A stretch of DNA of 56,642 nt from positions 1 through 56,642 of the forward strand of contig NZ_JARHZE010000119.1 of the NCBI RefSeq assembly GCF_029258315.1, given 5' to 3'. The notes below the pieces were generated by a model. That model ran no database searches. It had not been told where the DNA came from and saw nothing but the letters and a program-made list of their open reading frames with translations. Within the stretch, counting starts at the first letter, position 1. The number at the start of each line of letters is the position of its first letter. This DNA is from Fusobacterium sp. (GTDB taxonomy: Bacteria; Fusobacteriota; Fusobacteriia; Fusobacteriales; Fusobacteriaceae). Shown here one piece after another: positions 31,881-39,449 of the stretch. Both the position numbers and the translations under genes were made by a program.

Positions 31881-34800
31881 TTAAAGTCTTGAAATATCAA
31901 ATACTTCTAATTTATCTTCTTCTAAGTGTTCTTTTTCCATTTTTATAACAGCTTTTAAAGTATCTATTGAAGTTAATACCTCTACTCCATACTCAGTAGC
32001 AGTTCTTCTCATTCTGAATCCATCTCTTTGAGCGTCGTTTGCTTTTGTAGGAGTGTTGATTAATAAATCAACTTTTTTATTCATAAGAATAGTTAAGATA
32101 TTTGGCTCTTCTTCTCCAATTCTTCTTACAACTTCTGATTTTATTCCGTGCTCAGATAGGAATTTATTTGTTCCAGCAGTTGCAAATATTTCACAGTTAA
32201 GATCTATTAATTCTCTAACGATTGGTAAAAACTCTTCTTTATCTTTATCTCTGATTGTAAGTAAAACTTTTTTACCAGAAACTTTATTAACTCTTTTTCC
32301 ACCAAGTAATCCTTTGTAGATAGCTTCTTCTACTGTATGTCCTACTCCTAAAACCTCTCCTGTCGATCTCATTTCAGGTCCTAATGAAACTTCAACTTCT
32401 GATAATTTTTCTGTTGAGAATACTGGTACTTTTACAGCCACTAGATTTGGTTTTTTGTAGATTCCTGTTCCATAACCAATTTCTTCTAATGTTTCTCCTA
32501 AAATTATTCTTGTTGCAATTTCAATTACAGGAAGTCCAGATATTTTTGAAATATATGGAACTGTTCTTGAAGATCTTGGGTTAACCTCAATTACATATAA
32601 CTCATTTTCATAAGCTATAAATTGAATGTTCATCATACCTTTAGTTTCTAAAGCTTGAGATATTTTCTTAGTTATTTCTAATACTTTCTCCTCAGTTCCT
32701 TCATATAAGTTTTGTTGAGGATAGATTGTTATTGAGTCTCCAGAGTGAACTCCTGCTCTCTCTAAGTGTTCCATTATTCCTGGGATTAATACATCTTTAC
32801 CGTCACAAATAGCGTCTACTTCTAATTCAATTCCGTTTAAATATTTATCTATTAATACTGGATTTTCTGGGTCTCTGTCAAATGAAGATTCAAGATATTT
32901 TACTAAGTTATATTCATCGTGACAAATTTCCATTCCTTGTCCACCAAGTACATAAGATGGTCTTACAAGTACTGGATATTTAATTTCATTTGCAATTTCA
33001 ATTCCGTGGTTGATATCCCAAACTGCTCTTCCTTTAGGTCTTTTTATATCTAATTTTTCCATCATTTCTTCGAATTTTTCTCTGTCTTCTGCTTCGTCTA
33101 TTTTCTCAGCTGAAGTTCCAAGAATTTTTATTCCTCTATCTGATAAAGCATTAGCAAGTTTTATAGCAGTTTGTCCTCCAAATTGAAGTACAACTCCTTC
33201 TGGTTTTTCTTTTTCTATTATATTTAAAACATCTTCTAATATTAATGGTTCAAAGTATAATCTGTCTGCTGTATTGTAGTCAGTTGAAACTGTTTCTGGG
33301 TTGTTATTGATTATGATACTTTCAATTCCCATTTTCTTTAATGTTTTAATTGAGTGAACTGTACAGTAGTCAAACTCAATACCTTGTCCAATTCTTATTG
33401 GTCCTGAACCTATAACGATTATCTTTCTTTTATTTTCTACTTCTACTTCATCGTGCTCATCATATGTTGAATATAAGTAAGAAGTTTGTGCTTTAAATTC
33501 AGCAGCACAAGTATCAACTCTTTTATAAGCTGGTATTATGTTGTGCTCTTCTCTTTTGCTTCTGATATCGTCTTCAGTAACTCCCATAAGTTCTGCTATT
33601 CCTTTATCAGAGAATCCTTTTTTCTTTAATTTTCTTAAATATTCAGGATCTAAATCTTTGAATTTAGTTTTCTTTAATATTTCTTCTTGTCTTACTAACC
33701 ACTCTATTTTTTCCATAAAGAATTTGTCTATACCAGTGATTTTTTGTAATTTTTCTTTTATATATCCTCTTCTTAACATTTCAGCAACTACGAAAATTCT
33801 TTCGTCGTCAGGTCTTACAACTGCTTTCTTTAATTCTTCCATTGTAAGTTTTTTAACTGCTGGATGCTCAAGGTTAAATCTTCCAATTTCTAGAGATTTT
33901 AATCCTTTTAAGAATGCTGCCTCAAAGTTATCTCCTATTGACATAACCTCTCCAGTAGCCATCATTTTTGTTCCTAAAACTTTGTTTGCATTTCTGAATT
34001 TATCAAATGGCCATTTAGGAATTTTTGCAACTATATAGTCAATTGTTGGTTCTGTACAAGCATAAGACTCTCCAGTAACTTCATTTATTATTTCATCAAG
34101 TGTATATCCTAAAGCAAGTTTTGTAGATACTCTAGCTATTGGGTAACCAGTTGCTTTAGATGCAAGAGCTGACGAACGAGAAACTCTTGGGTTAATTTCG
34201 ATTATAGCATATTTCATTGATTTTGGGTGAAGAGCAAATTGAACGTTACATCCTCCGATTACTCCTACCTCATCTAATATTTTTAAAGCTGATTTTTTAA
34301 GCATTACTGCTTCTTTGTGAGATAATGTTTGAGTTGGAGCAACAACTATTGAGTCTCCTGTATGGATTCCAACTGGGTCAACGTTTTCCATATTACAAAT
34401 TGTAATACAGTTTCCATTTTTATCTCTCATTACTTCATATTCTATCTCTTTCCATCCAAGGATAGATTTTTCTATTAAAACTTGTCCAACTCTTGAAAGT
34501 TTTAATCCTTTTAATAATATTTCTTCTAATTCTTTTTGAGTGTAAGCGATTCCTCCACCAGTTCCACCCATTGTATAAGCTGGTCTTACAACTACTGGAT
34601 ATCCGATTTCTTTTGCAACTTCAATTCCATGCTCTAGACTTTCTACGATTTCACTCTCTATACAAGGCTCTCCTATTTTCTCCATTGTTTCTCTGAAGAT
34701 TTCTCTGTCTTCACCTTTTTTTATAGACTCAACAGAAGTTCCGATTACTCTTACATTATATTTTTCTAATATTCCTTTTTCTGTTAATTCAACAGCAAGG

Positions 34801-35087
34801 TTTAATGCAGTTTGTACTCCCATTCCAGCAAGTAATGAGTCTGGTCTTTCTTTAGCTATTACTTTTTCAACAAACTCAGCTGTAATTGGCTCTATATATA
34901 TTCTATCTGCAACAGCTTTATCTGTCATTATTGTAGCTGGGTTAGAGTTTATTAATACAACTTCTACACCTTCATTTTTTAAAGTTTCACAAGCTTGTGT
35001 TCCTGAATAGTCAAACTCTGCTGCTTGTCCTATTATAATTGGTCCTGAACCTATTACTAATACTTTTTTTATTGATTTATCTAACAT
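31881..35087 (-). CDS. carB: Carbamoyl-phosphate synthase large subunit
   Basis: 1068 aa, full length. Makes carbamoyl phosphate from bicarbonate, 2 ATP and ammonia (normally passed from CarA). Order: first ATP-grasp carboxyphosphate domain (to ~400), oligomerisation domain (~400-550), second ATP-grasp carbamate domain (~555-935) and a C-terminal MGS-like allosteric domain (~935-1068). Conserved ATP-grasp elements are intact: [33 protein letters not shown] and [18 protein letters not shown] chose the second of two adjacent ATGs because AGGAGG is 5 bp upstream of it. It lies 56 bp after carA. With the glutaminase of CarA apparently inactive, this subunit may run on free ammonia. Confidence 0.96.
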
Positions 35088-35143
35088 CATTTCCTCCTAA
35101 AATTGTTTCTTCAAAAATATATGCTAAAATATTTAAAAATTTA

Positions 35144-36178
35144 TTAAACAAGTTTTAAAAAGTTTTCAAAAACATCGTTTGACTCTTTGTATAAGTCAGG
35201 CATATATTGAACTGTAACTATTTTTAAGTTATCGTTTTTCATTCCTTCTATTGTCTTAACGTTTACTCCTTGATGAGTCATTTCAAAATCTTTAGGAAGT
35301 TCTTCAACTACATATCCTGTATTTTGAGCTGTTATAATAACTTTTCCTGTTGCAAGGTTTTTAACTGGGTATCCACCTCTATGTCCATATTTTAATTTTG
35401 CTACTTTTCCTCCAAGAGCAAGAGCGATTACTTGGTGTCCTAAAACTTCTCCAAACATTTGAATTTTTCCAGCTAATTTTTTTATCTCTTCCATAGTCTC
35501 AGTTAAGTTTTCTGGATTTCCAGGTCCGTTTGAAACTACTAAAGCTGATAGATTAGCAGCTAAGATTTCTTCTGCTTTTGTATTGTATGGGAATACAACA
35601 ACATTAAATCCTCTTTCTTTCATATATTCAAGAGTACTATTTTTAACTCCTAAATCAAGAACTCCTATTCTTTTTCCTTCATTAGCTATTTCATAAACTT
35701 CTTTTGTGCTTACTTCAGCAACAGCATTTTTATTTGAAAATTTTTCAAATCTTTCTTGGATCTCTTTCTTAGTTAAATCCTCAGCTGTTATGATAGCTTT
35801 CATAGCTCCATTATCTCTTATTATTTGAGTAAGGTATCTTGTATCGATTCCTTTAAATCCTGTTACATTGTATTGTCTTAAGAAACCGTCTAAAGTCATT
35901 TCACATCTAAAGTTGTTTGGTAATTTTGCATCTTCTTTTATGATTAATGCTCTTAATTGAACTTTATCTGATTCCATATCATCAGTATTTATCCCATAAT
36001 TTCCTATCATTGGATATGTCATTGTAATCATCATTCCATGATTTGCTGGATCTGTTAATATTTCTTGATATCCTGTCATTCCAGTATTAAAAGATATCTC
36101 TCCTACAGTATCTGCTAACTCACCAAAAATTTTTCCTTCAAAAACTTTTCCATTTTCAAGAATTAATTTTCCCTTCAT
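35144..36178 (-). CDS. carA: Carbamoyl-phosphate synthase small subunit with a lost glutaminase triad
   Basis: 344 aa. The small subunit normally hydrolyses glutamine and feeds ammonia to CarB. Fold and order are right: CPSase_sm domain (1-140, FNTGMTGYQEILTDP) and class I amidotransferase domain (170-344, VVSNGPGNP). But the catalytic residues are changed. The nucleophile motif GICLGHQ reads GEVLGHQ (243-249), so Cys is Val245. The HPE motif reads YMPDL (325-329), so His is Met326 and Glu is Asp328. QNHG, which contacts glutamine, reads QNTG (T287). I checked the reading frame against the DNA at each site. The gene is otherwise intact and coupled to carB, so it is probably kept as a structural or allosteric partner of an ammonia-dependent enzyme. 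GGGAGG precedes the ATG. Confidence 0.95.
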   Translation of the reverse strand: MKGKLILENGKVFEGKIFGELADTVGEISFNTGMTGYQEILTDPANHGMMITMTYPMIGNYGINTDDMESDKVQLRALIIKEDAKLPNNFRCEMTLDGFLRQYNVTGFKGIDTRYLTQIIRDNGAMKAIITAEDLTKKEIQERFEKFSNKNAVAEVSTKEVYEIANEGKRIGVLDLGVKNSTLEYMKERGFNVVVFPYNTKAEEILAANLSALVVSNGPGNPENLTETMEEIKKLAGKIQMFGEVLGHQVIALALGGKVAKLKYGHRGGYPVKNLATGKVIITAQNTGYVVEELPKDFEMTHQGVNVKTIEGMKNDNLKIVTVQYMPDLYKESNDVFENFLKLV

Positions 36179-36197: not shown

Positions 36198-36233
36198 ATA
36201 AAAAAGAGATATAACTAAAATAGTCATATCTCT
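36198..36233 (-). terminator. Attenuator hairpin upstream of carA
   Basis: 13-bp stem AGAGATATGACTA / TAGTTATATCTCT on the minus strand (36233-36221 and 36217-36205) with one G-U pair, a tiny loop and a T6 run. It lies before carA, not after a gene, so it can only act as an attenuator. Its 5' arm overlaps the last two bases of the leader-peptide stop codon. Confidence 0.85.
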
Positions 36234-36339
36234 AATTAAAATTGAAAAAAATAGAAAATTTAAAAAGATTAAAAAGATCGTCTTTTTTTATTAAAAATGC
36301 TGTATTTATCTTATTAAAAAAGCCATTTAATCTCTTCAT
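36232..36339 (-). CDS. Leader peptide of the carAB operon (U-rich, pyrBI-type)
   Basis: A 35-codon ORF beginning at an ATG with an ideal AGGAGG ribosome binding site and ending at TAG inside the attenuator hairpin. The peptide begins MKRLNGFFNKINTAFLIKK, has no recognisable domain, and contains nine Phe residues, most in its last third. There the RNA is one long series of U-tracts (CUUUUU twice, then UUUUUUU) just before the hairpin. E. coli pyrBI uses the same design: when UTP is scarce, RNA polymerase stalls on the U-tracts, the translating ribosome catches up and blocks the terminator. The Phe codons are probably a by-product of the U-runs. It has its own promoter at 36370-36398. Confidence 0.75.
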   Translation of the reverse strand: MKRLNGFFNKINTAFLIKKDDLFNLFKFSIFFNFN

Positions 36340-36369: not shown

Positions 36370-36398
36370 ATTCTACTATAAGTTTAATTTTTTGTCAA
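36370..36398 (-). promoter_or_regulatory. Promoter of the leader peptide-carAB operon
   Basis: Consensus TTGACA (36398-36393), 17-bp spacer, TAGAAT (36375-36370) on the minus strand. The -35 box lies inside the last codons of the helicase-fusion gene. Confidence 0.8.
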
Positions 36399-39300
36399 GA
36401 GATTTTTCTTTTATTTTTTTATCTATCTCCCTTAACTTTTCTTTTAATTCTTTATTAGTTTCCCCTATTATTCTTATATATATTTTTTTCATTATCTCTT
36501 TTTTTCTCATTTTGATCGAATTTTTATCATCAAGCACCAAAATCCTCATAAAAAGATTTTCTATTATTTTTTCATTTAAGAAATTTATATTCAATTTTTT
36601 TAAGAAAATTTTAAAATATTTTACTTGATAATTTTCAATACAGACATCTAAAGGGTTAGTTTCTATACTTGCATAGTTATCTTCTACTAAATTTATTTTT
36701 AAAATTAAATCTGTTAATTGTCTATTTTTATTTTTTAAAGAAAACTCAACAGGAGTTTCTACTTTTGAATTAAATACATATTCATACTCTTCATCAAAGA
36801 AATAATTATATAATTCTATTGCATTGGAAAAATTTTCCTTTGCTATATAAGTTAATATATCATATTTTCCCTGAACTTTTATATTTTTCTTAGCTCCTAA
36901 GAACAGAAGCATATTTAAGATATCAATATCATTTAATTTTAAACTATTAAATAGTGGAGTTAATTTATTTTTATCGAAGGTATTTATATCTTTTTTACCT
37001 AAAAGTTTTTCTATTACCTCTATTTTATCATTTACACCCTCTATTTTATTAAATTTTTCCTCTAATAATTTTCTTCTCATCTTTGAAATTCCAATATAAT
37101 TTGAAGCTTTTTTATAAAAGTTAAGTGCTAAAGAATAATTTTGTTGTACTTCATAGATCTCAGCCAATATATTATTCTCTTGTTTTTTTCCAAATATAGC
37201 CACAGCTCTATCCAACTCTTTTTTACTAAATCTATTTTCACTTAATTTTTCTAAAAATATTTTTTTTATCTCAGCGTATCTATATGGGGTGTCAAAAGTT
37301 TCAACTGAATATATCAAACTTTTTATATATTCCTCTTTTTTTAATGTTGTATCTATTATTAAATTTTCATAAATCTTTCTTTTATTTTCTAATCTGTTCT
37401 CACTTATCTTTTCAAGAGCTACTTTATAATCTCCATTTTCAATATCCTCTTCTATATTTTTCTCAAGTATCCAAGTAGGGTATCCTGCCATTTCAAAAGC
37501 CTTTTGTGCCTCTTCATAGTTTTCAACATTATAAAGTCTTATTCCCTCTTCTAGCCATTCCTCTTTATTTGATATATTTATCTCTTTTGTTATTTTTTCT
37601 TTTGTTTCATTATTAACTACTTTTATAAAATTCTTTATCTTTTCTAATAGAAGATTACCTTCTAGTTTATCCTCCATTATAATCAGATTTTTTTTACATC
37701 TAGTTATTCCAACATAAAACAGATTAAAATATTTCCTATATCTTTGATCTCTTTTTACATCCTTATTAAATATTTTTTCCCAAGCAAATAGATTTGTTGT
37801 TATCAAGTTTAGACATACAACATTATCATATTCAAGCCCCTTTATCTCATCTATACTAAACACTCTCATGTGTATATCTGAATATCTATCCAGTTTATAC
37901 TTTTCCTCTTTCGAAGAAACTATAATAGCGTATTTAACGTCTTTCTGCATAGTTTTTAAAAGTTCATAATCAGGTGACATCAAAGTAATTTTTCCCTTAT
38001 CAACTATAAAATTTTCTTTATAATCCTTTACACCTAAGTTCCCTATATATTCCTGTCTTAACTCCGTTAAAAAGTTAGCAAGTTCAACAATATCTTTTGA
38101 GTTTCTGTAATTTTTACTTAAAATAACCTCTTGATTTTGAATTTTTTTAGTAAAATAATAATTTCTAAGCCTTTCAAAACTAAATGAATTAAAGTTTATC
38201 ATCTGATGAATATCTCCAGCTAATAAGATATTTCTATAATCATTTACTAAATTCAACATAAAATAAATTTCTACCTCTGTAAAATCCTGTATCTCATCTA
38301 CAACTAAAAAATCATATTTTATATCAAGTCCTATACTTCTCACTGCTAAATCATTCATATCGTATAAATCATTTTCTTTTTTCCAGTTCTCATATTTTTC
38401 AGCTATCCTATAAATAAATTTCTTTTCTTCAACAGTCAGCAACGAATAGTTTTTATTTAACTTTTCATACTCATCAAAAGAGATAAACTTTTCATTTATA
38501 TCTCTGCTCCAGTTATCAGTTCTCTCTTTAAACATTAAACCTTTTAATATTCCCATTATTTCAAAATAGATATTAAAATCCTCTATCTTCATTTTTTTTC
38601 TATCTGGAAATGAAAAAGCTAAAAACTCTTTAAATCTTTTTAGTCTTACAATTTTTCTTGTATCTATTTTTAAAACTTTTTTATAAAACTCTCTTGGAGT
38701 ATAAAATTCAGTTATTTTTTTATCATCTTTATTTCTAAAAAGATTATACTGCTCCTCTATGCTGTCTTTTAAAAGTTTATTTCCTGTAAAATATACTACT
38801 TTCTTTATTCCATATATATTTTGATATTCCTCTAAATTTAAAATTTTTCTTATGGTAATTGTACTTTTTCCACTTCCAGCACTTCCAGCTACAAGCAGAG
38901 GTGTGGGCTCTTTCAAAGCCTCATATTGCTCATCATTTAAATAATAATAAAAATATTTATTGCTGTGTCCAACCTTTTTAAATTCACCATCAGAGGTAAC
39001 TTCATAACTTATTACCTGATTATAATCAAGATAAATCTCCTGAGGAATCTCTTCTTTTTCCTCATCTATAAATTCATTTTTATCTATCTTAAAATCTCTT
39101 ACTTCTTTTATATCTGCATTTTTTCCCCTCTTTACTCCTCTATCATGAGTTGAATAAAGAATAAAAGTTATTTTTTCCTCTTCATCACCTCTCCTATCTA
39201 AAGAAAAGAAAATTCTATCTCCATTATTTATTCTAAATTCAAATCTATTTTCTATCCCATTTATTTTTTTTATCCAAAATCCTTTAGGAATATTTCTTAT

Positions 39301-39414
39301 ATTATTTATATTTCTTAAAATTTCTTGATAAAAATAATATAAATTTTTTTCTATTTCCTCTATTTTTTCATTTTTTATATTTTTAAAAAAATTCTCTCTT
39401 ATTAAAAATTTCAT
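36376..39414 (-). CDS. UvrD-type SF1 helicase fused to RelE-like, TPR-like and ankyrin-like regions
   Basis: 1012 aa, unusual architecture. Residues ~40-95 resemble a RelE/ParE toxin fold (IENRFEFRINNGDRIFFSL, then ITFILYSTHDRG). An SF1 helicase core follows: Walker A GSAGSGKST (177-185), DEIQD (373-377), LAGDIHQMI, NYRNSKDIVELAN and motif VI YVGITRCKKNL (567-577). After ~610 come TPR-like helices (GIRLYNVENYEEAQKAFEMAGY, YSLALNFYKKASNY), then ankyrin-like repeats (TPLFNSLKLNDIDILNMLLFLGAKKN). I chose the ATG at 39414 because GAGAGGA lies upstream; an earlier GTG at 39444 has no such site. It has its own promoter. Function unknown; RNA or DNA surveillance or defence is conceivable. Confidence 0.82.
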   Translation of the reverse strand: MKFLIRENFFKNIKNEKIEEIEKNLYYFYQEILRNINNIRNIPKGFWIKKINGIENRFEFRINNGDRIFFSLDRRGDEEEKITFILYSTHDRGVKRGKNADIKEVRDFKIDKNEFIDEEKEEIPQEIYLDYNQVISYEVTSDGEFKKVGHSNKYFYYYLNDEQYEALKEPTPLLVAGSAGSGKSTITIRKILNLEEYQNIYGIKKVVYFTGNKLLKDSIEEQYNLFRNKDDKKITEFYTPREFYKKVLKIDTRKIVRLKRFKEFLAFSFPDRKKMKIEDFNIYFEIMGILKGLMFKERTDNWSRDINEKFISFDEYEKLNKNYSLLTVEEKKFIYRIAEKYENWKKENDLYDMNDLAVRSIGLDIKYDFLVVDEIQDFTEVEIYFMLNLVNDYRNILLAGDIHQMINFNSFSFERLRNYYFTKKIQNQEVILSKNYRNSKDIVELANFLTELRQEYIGNLGVKDYKENFIVDKGKITLMSPDYELLKTMQKDVKYAIIVSSKEEKYKLDRYSDIHMRVFSIDEIKGLEYDNVVCLNLITTNLFAWEKIFNKDVKRDQRYRKYFNLFYVGITRCKKNLIIMEDKLEGNLLLEKIKNFIKVVNNETKEKITKEINISNKEEWLEEGIRLYNVENYEEAQKAFEMAGYPTWILEKNIEEDIENGDYKVALEKISENRLENKRKIYENLIIDTTLKKEEYIKSLIYSVETFDTPYRYAEIKKIFLEKLSENRFSKKELDRAVAIFGKKQENNILAEIYEVQQNYSLALNFYKKASNYIGISKMRRKLLEEKFNKIEGVNDKIEVIEKLLGKKDINTFDKNKLTPLFNSLKLNDIDILNMLLFLGAKKNIKVQGKYDILTYIAKENFSNAIELYNYFFDEEYEYVFNSKVETPVEFSLKNKNRQLTDLILKINLVEDNYASIETNPLDVCIENYQVKYFKIFLKKLNINFLNEKIIENLFMRILVLDDKNSIKMRKKEIMKKIYIRIIGETNKELKEKLREIDKKIKEKSLDKKLNL

Positions 39415-39449
39415 ATTTAAAGTCCTCTCATTTTTTCTATTCACTATTA

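Follow-up and report, generated by a model that had tools for sequence, protein, structure and literature searches.

The window analyzed here, a stretch of 56,642 nucleotides from a gut-type Fusobacterium sp. (assembly GCF_029258315.1, contig NZ_JARHZE010000119.1), carries a carbamoyl phosphate synthetase (CPS) operon whose small subunit appears to have no glutaminase active site. This raises the question of whether such an enzyme still works and, if so, from where it obtains its nitrogen. The original prediction, made from the letters alone, was that CarA had lost its catalytic Cys, His and Glu together with the QNHG motif, and alignment to E. coli CarA and codon readings bore this out (Table 1). 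The open reading frame, intact as had been claimed, encodes 344 amino acids on the minus strand and scored 359 bits against TIGR01368 (cut-off 307). Within the protein, GICLGHQ is replaced by GEVLGHQ (residues 243-249), QNHG by QNTG (285-288) and HPE by MPD (326-328). In place of the Cys269-His353-Glu355 triad of CPS II small subunits, window CarA thus has Val, Met and Asp. Two further changes had not been noticed before: Ile268 is Glu, and the P358-G359-P360 loop immediately C-terminal to the HPE motif is deleted (among 122 intact CarAs, G359 is conserved in 100% and P360 in 99%). An AlphaFold model of the protein (pLDDT 87.7) was matched by Foldseek to E. coli CarA (1cs0_B, TM 0.92) and also resembled human CPS1 (TM 0.86-0.90), which indicates that the fold has been kept.

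Table 1. Features of the carAB region, in window coordinates.
Feature	Coordinates	Strand	Basis
carB, CPS large subunit, both active sites intact	31881..35090	-	ORF, TIGR01369, residue check
CarB segment with changes common to dead lineages	34296..34334	-	conserved-position comparison
CarB K265	34296-34298	-	
CarB V262	34305-34307	-	
CarB A261	34308-34310	-	
CarB T253	34332-34334	-	
carA, glutaminase-dead CPS small subunit	35144..36178	-	ORF, TIGR01368, alignment, AlphaFold/Foldseek
Missing tunnel-wall loop (E. coli P358-G359-P360)	35186..35191	-	MPDLY---KES vs HPEAxPGPxD
Codon 328 GAC (Asp) for catalytic Glu355	35195..35197	-	alignment + codon reading
Codon 326 ATG (Met) for catalytic His353	35201..35203	-	alignment + codon reading
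Codon 287 (Thr) for His312 of QNHG	35318..35320	-	alignment + codon reading
Codon 245 GTT (Val) for nucleophile Cys269	35444..35446	-	alignment + codon reading
Predicted intrinsic terminator (attenuator) immediately after leader stop codon	36206..36232	-	hairpin -14.6 kcal/mol, z -5.6
35-codon leader ORF MKRLNGFFNKINTAFLIKKDDLFNLFKFSIFFNFN, rich in Phe and Leu	36232..36339	-	
Putative sigma-70-like carAB promoter TTGACA-17 nt-TAGAAT	36370..36398	-	read from sequence

Most Fusobacteriaceae CarAs that we inspected are intact. The original prediction had proposed comparing relatives and looking for a second carA, and the loss turned out to be shared by four species: besides the window genome (G000), GEVLG and MPD are also present in G001, G002 and G029, relatives at 83-86% identity, and the reading frame is intact in all four. 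At the triad sites the relatives have the codons GTT or GTA, ATG and GAT; reaching GTT from a Cys codon takes at least two base changes, and reaching ATG from a His codon takes three. Since these are multi-base codon changes and three other genomes share the resulting residues, base-calling error could be excluded. A TIGR01368 search gave exactly one CarA in each of the four genomes (three of them, G001, G002 and G029, being 99% complete) and hence no second carA elsewhere. Counting G052 and G007 as well, a dead CarA is the sole CarA in six genomes.

The operon around the gene is preserved, as had also been predicted. After carA comes carB, as a separate gene, and its product scored 1508 bits against TIGR01369 (over the cut-off) and has all its ATP-grasp catalytic residues, with 30 checked positions in the same state as in intact relatives. 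Upstream of carA lie a putative promoter, the leader ORF and a predicted terminator. Comparable leaders precede both intact and dead carA in relatives, and an Rfam search of the leader gave no family match. The layout is like that of enterobacterial pyrBI, which has a UTP-sensitive attenuator, and by analogy carAB may be under UTP control. Directly upstream of the leader, a gene at 36376-39444 (minus strand) encodes a UvrD-like helicase of 1022 aa that also matches ankyrin weakly.

We then considered what these cells need carbamoyl phosphate for. The six genomes in which the dead CarA is the sole copy have one transcarbamylase each; those of G000, G052, G029 and G007 were scored as aspartate carbamoyltransferase (TIGR00670), and those of G001 and G002 are alike in sequence to this type. 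In the same genomes pyrE is present, ornithine transcarbamylase was not found and no carbamate kinase scored over the cut-off, so that supply through the arginine deiminase route or carbamate kinase could be set aside. The window genome has a complete pyrB-K-D-F-C-E set in one run (gene names by reading). No source of carbamoyl phosphate other than CarAB is thus evident, and the pyrimidine pathway would have no substrate unless CarAB works. We consider it very probable that window CarAB is a working CPS that cannot hydrolyze glutamine, that takes free NH3 through a remodeled tunnel, and whose product is used for pyrimidines only.

The same loss is found in further lineages; this recurrence and the changes in CarB described below go beyond the original prediction. 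Besides the window clade (lineage i), a second lineage comprises G052, with its sole dead CarA, and dead second copies in G040, G054 and G056, which are large-genome relatives of F. mortiferum. These three have an intact carAB plus a second, triad-dead carA ∼9-14 kb away (G040, L188; G056, L189; G054, L187/L196), which reads GISLGAQ and MPD and has carB alongside in the two cases read. Lineage iii is G007 (L045), where the dead CarA is again the sole copy. Lineage iv consists of Clostridioides difficile and two further Peptostreptococcaceae genomes, with a dead copy beside a retained intact one. In the C. difficile group (G106-G111; L193, G109:C1:588000-604000) there are two tandem carAB operons, the first with a triad-dead CarA (Gly, Ile) and the second with an intact CarA. 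The residues at the lost sites vary by lineage (V/M, S/M, S/L, G/N and G/I).

In CarB, we compared 325 positions with at least 97% conservation among 99 intact sequences. Of these, five were altered in two or more of lineages i to iv: 253 (Thr for Ser in every lineage), 261 (Tyr to Ala in i and to Cys in ii to iv), 262 (Q>V, R/A and A in three lineages), 265 (R>K in two) and 536. A stretch of only 13 residues takes in four of the five (p 0.0001 by permutation). As a control, intact sister groups gave one unrelated match and no such cluster, and random quadruples gave 0.36 on average. In E. coli CarB, position 253 is Ala. Since only 5-6 conserved positions changed per lineage in all, the 253-265 segment is the main CarB change. 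In C. difficile (G109), T253/C261/A262/K265 are found only in the first CarB, the partner of the dead CarA. Arg265 of this segment may be a tunnel-wall residue. In sequence, the segment comes immediately after one side of the gate of the ammonia tunnel, C232-A252-A314 (PMC6241538). In CarA, lineages i, ii and iv lack the P358-G359-P360 loop, and G007 retains Pro358 and Gly359; the E. coli CarA mutant G359F is known as structure 1m6v. According to the human CPS1 paper (PMC4655335), in which a side path for external ammonia is proposed, blocking or perforating the tunnel of E. coli CPS leaves its function with external ammonia normal.

The CarB mark was then used in a blind test, in which 398 genomes of the C. 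difficile phylum were searched with a pattern that required a small residue at CarB position 261. There were two matches. In G596, CarB has T253/C261 and the adjacent CarA, in an arginine operon, is dead (SNGLGHQ and NPG). In G811 (L348-L350, C17:214500-233000), a carB with C261 comes directly after argD with no carA within about 6 kb, possibly representing a CarA-less CPS. In the other direction, a degenerate DNA pattern for CarA, G[IV]-notCys-LGHQ, gave 21 more cases among 391 Clostridia genomes (about 5%), all of them CarA, and the reversed control pattern gave no matches in the same genomes. The dead CarA was the single CarA match in 16 of the 21, these being genomes of unstated completeness. 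Tyr261 was changed in only 7 of 18 CarBs from this wider group, which indicates that the CarB mark is not required in every case. Some of the 11 cases with an unchanged Tyr261 keep His and Glu, and the 11 may represent earlier or different stages.

How often the loss arose depends on the tree. In the CarB tree there are at least 7-8 changes of state overall, and four within Fusobacteriaceae and Peptostreptococcaceae. CarA trees grouped the dead Fusobacteriaceae rows or left them inseparable (AU p 0.17), and the CarB tree placed them in three places. The AU test on CarB rejected all three dead groups together (p 0.004), and with this a single Fusobacteriaceae origin; for the two larger groups together it gave p 0.08, and a shared origin of these two is possible. 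Horizontal movement was seen in G029, whose carAB (L178, G029:C9) is a mosaic of native flanks around a ∼3.6 kb dead-type segment. Its leader, the first ∼200 nt of carA and the 3' end of carB are similar to F. mortiferum (up to 90%), and the middle segment matches the window clade (77-93%). The transferred piece thus spans the glutaminase domain of CarA together with most of CarB, which would be expected of parts that form one functional unit. On balance, we favor the view that these cases belong to an unrecognized class of ammonia-specific bacterial CPS, with at least 7-8 independent origins in anaerobes, a killed glutaminase, often the same CarB side entrance, and in one case spread by allelic replacement. 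C. difficile and the large-genome F. mortiferum relatives would, on this reading, have retained both types of CPS, one using glutamine and one using ammonia.

These data also had to be weighed against the view that CarA is simply decaying, with a neutral loss of the glutaminase in an operon on its way out and pyrimidines taken up from outside. Consistent with decay, the dead lineages show faster evolution of the glutaminase domain than of the N-domain: pairwise omega in the window clade was 0.11-0.28 for the former and 0.06-0.10 for the latter, and in lineages i to iv changes at conserved positions were ∼2-7 times commoner in the glutaminase domain. In intact pairs both domains were mostly at 0.05-0.12, with G003/G004 as one exception (glutaminase domain 0.20). 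Omega is nevertheless far below 1 in both domains of the dead CarAs, and that of carB (0.04-0.08 in the window clade) is unchanged. Taken together, omega and the conserved-position changes indicate that constraint persists on the part of CarA that binds CarB and has been relaxed in the glutaminase part. Decay would also leave unexplained why the frame is intact in four species, the attenuator kept and the pyr operon complete in the window genome, why the dead module was transferred into G029 as a unit, and why CarB changes co-vary with a dead CarA. We therefore regard decay as highly unlikely, and the claim in the original prediction that CarAB is maintained is supported by this purifying selection and by its position as the one evident carbamoyl phosphate source.

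A separate glutaminase or amidotransferase that docks on CarAB and supplies ammonia from glutamine seems very unlikely too. The genomes do hold other class I amidotransferases and Cys hydrolases from which such a partner might be drawn, but the class I amidotransferases inspected proved to be GuaA or peptidase C26-like proteins, and a second CarA is lacking. In addition, the N-domain of CarA plays no role in hydrolyzing glutamine, and its conservation looks like that of a CarA still seated on CarB; the same loss occurs in unrelated genomes (G596 and Clostridia). Least likely of all is a CarA that has taken on another activity, or that still hydrolyzes glutamine or another amide by a novel catalytic arrangement. 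All four species share the pocket segment GEVLG, a hint of some constraint, but the nucleophile, the His, the Glu/Asp geometry, QNHG and the Gly359 loop have each changed, and the residues at these sites are lineage-specific, as expected from loss rather than from new chemistry.

In the ammonia-using CPS that we favor, CarA would be kept as a structural and allosteric partner of CarB with a dead glutaminase pocket, and free cellular NH3 would pass directly to CarAB. The ammonia path would be remodeled by loss of the CarA wall loop, and the changed CarB residues 253, 261, 262 and 265 beside the tunnel gate would probably admit NH3 from the side. Carbamoyl phosphate would then go only to aspartate transcarbamylase and pyrimidines, under the leader/terminator attenuator. 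The ammonia levels needed by E. coli CPS are thought to be too high to be physiological (PMC6245113), so that here either the Km for NH3 would have improved or the cells would hold much ammonia.

Compared with E. coli CarAB (CPS II), the window enzyme has the same two subunits, gene order, fold and CarB active sites, but it has lost the triad, QNHG and P358-G359-P360 and is changed at CarB 253, 261, 262 and 265. Changes at the same places in E. coli laboratory mutants (G359F, 1m6v; C269S, 1c30; tunnel-perforated forms) uncouple glutamine while ammonia use stays (PMC4655335); in the window type they are natural, several occur together, and they do so in several lineages. Vertebrate CPS I likewise keeps a glutaminase-like part as structure without the catalytic Cys and is thought, like the window enzyme, to take external NH3, and at the position of Tyr261, the usual residue in CarBs, human CPS1 has Phe. 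CPS I, however, is one polypeptide, mitochondrial, N-acetylglutamate dependent and part of the urea cycle, whereas the window CPS has two unfused subunits, serves pyrimidines only and has a separate origin. The carbamate-kinase-like CPS of Pyrococcus also makes carbamoyl phosphate from ammonia, but with an unrelated amino-acid-kinase fold.

Reviews, one of them of 2018, describe glutamine as the physiological nitrogen donor and all bacterial versions as glutamine-using, and our searches for an ammonia-dependent or triad-less bacterial CPS, in literature that excluded most subscription journals, found none. For a sizeable set of anaerobes our reading would contradict this glutamine-only view. 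Databases label dead-CarA proteins as glutamine-hydrolyzing, which would place the wrong reaction in metabolic models of such species. The change of the same tunnel-side residues in several lineages would amount to a natural, repeated experiment on the loss of substrate channeling, parallel to the vertebrate step from CPS III to CPS I and directly testable in the well-studied E. coli enzyme.

Finally, we looked at other glutamine enzymes in these genomes. GuaA has kept its triad, and the loss is therefore specific to CarA and not part of a general loss of amidotransferases. Loss of glutamine synthetase is not a general cause either, the window clade having the 700-residue type. Glutamine synthetase (PF00120) was not found in G007 and G190 only, both with a dead CarA; G007 keeps the catalytic Cys of GuaA, for which imported glutamine or ammonia would be needed. 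In a PF00117 search, G003 and G004 alone gave a match of CTP synthase size, and CTP synthase may be absent from G000, G001, G002, G029, G036 and G052. In G029, G052, G036 and G007 (L118, L121, L124 and L119), the glutaminase motif of GuaA is FHAEV rather than FHPEV, with His and Glu kept.
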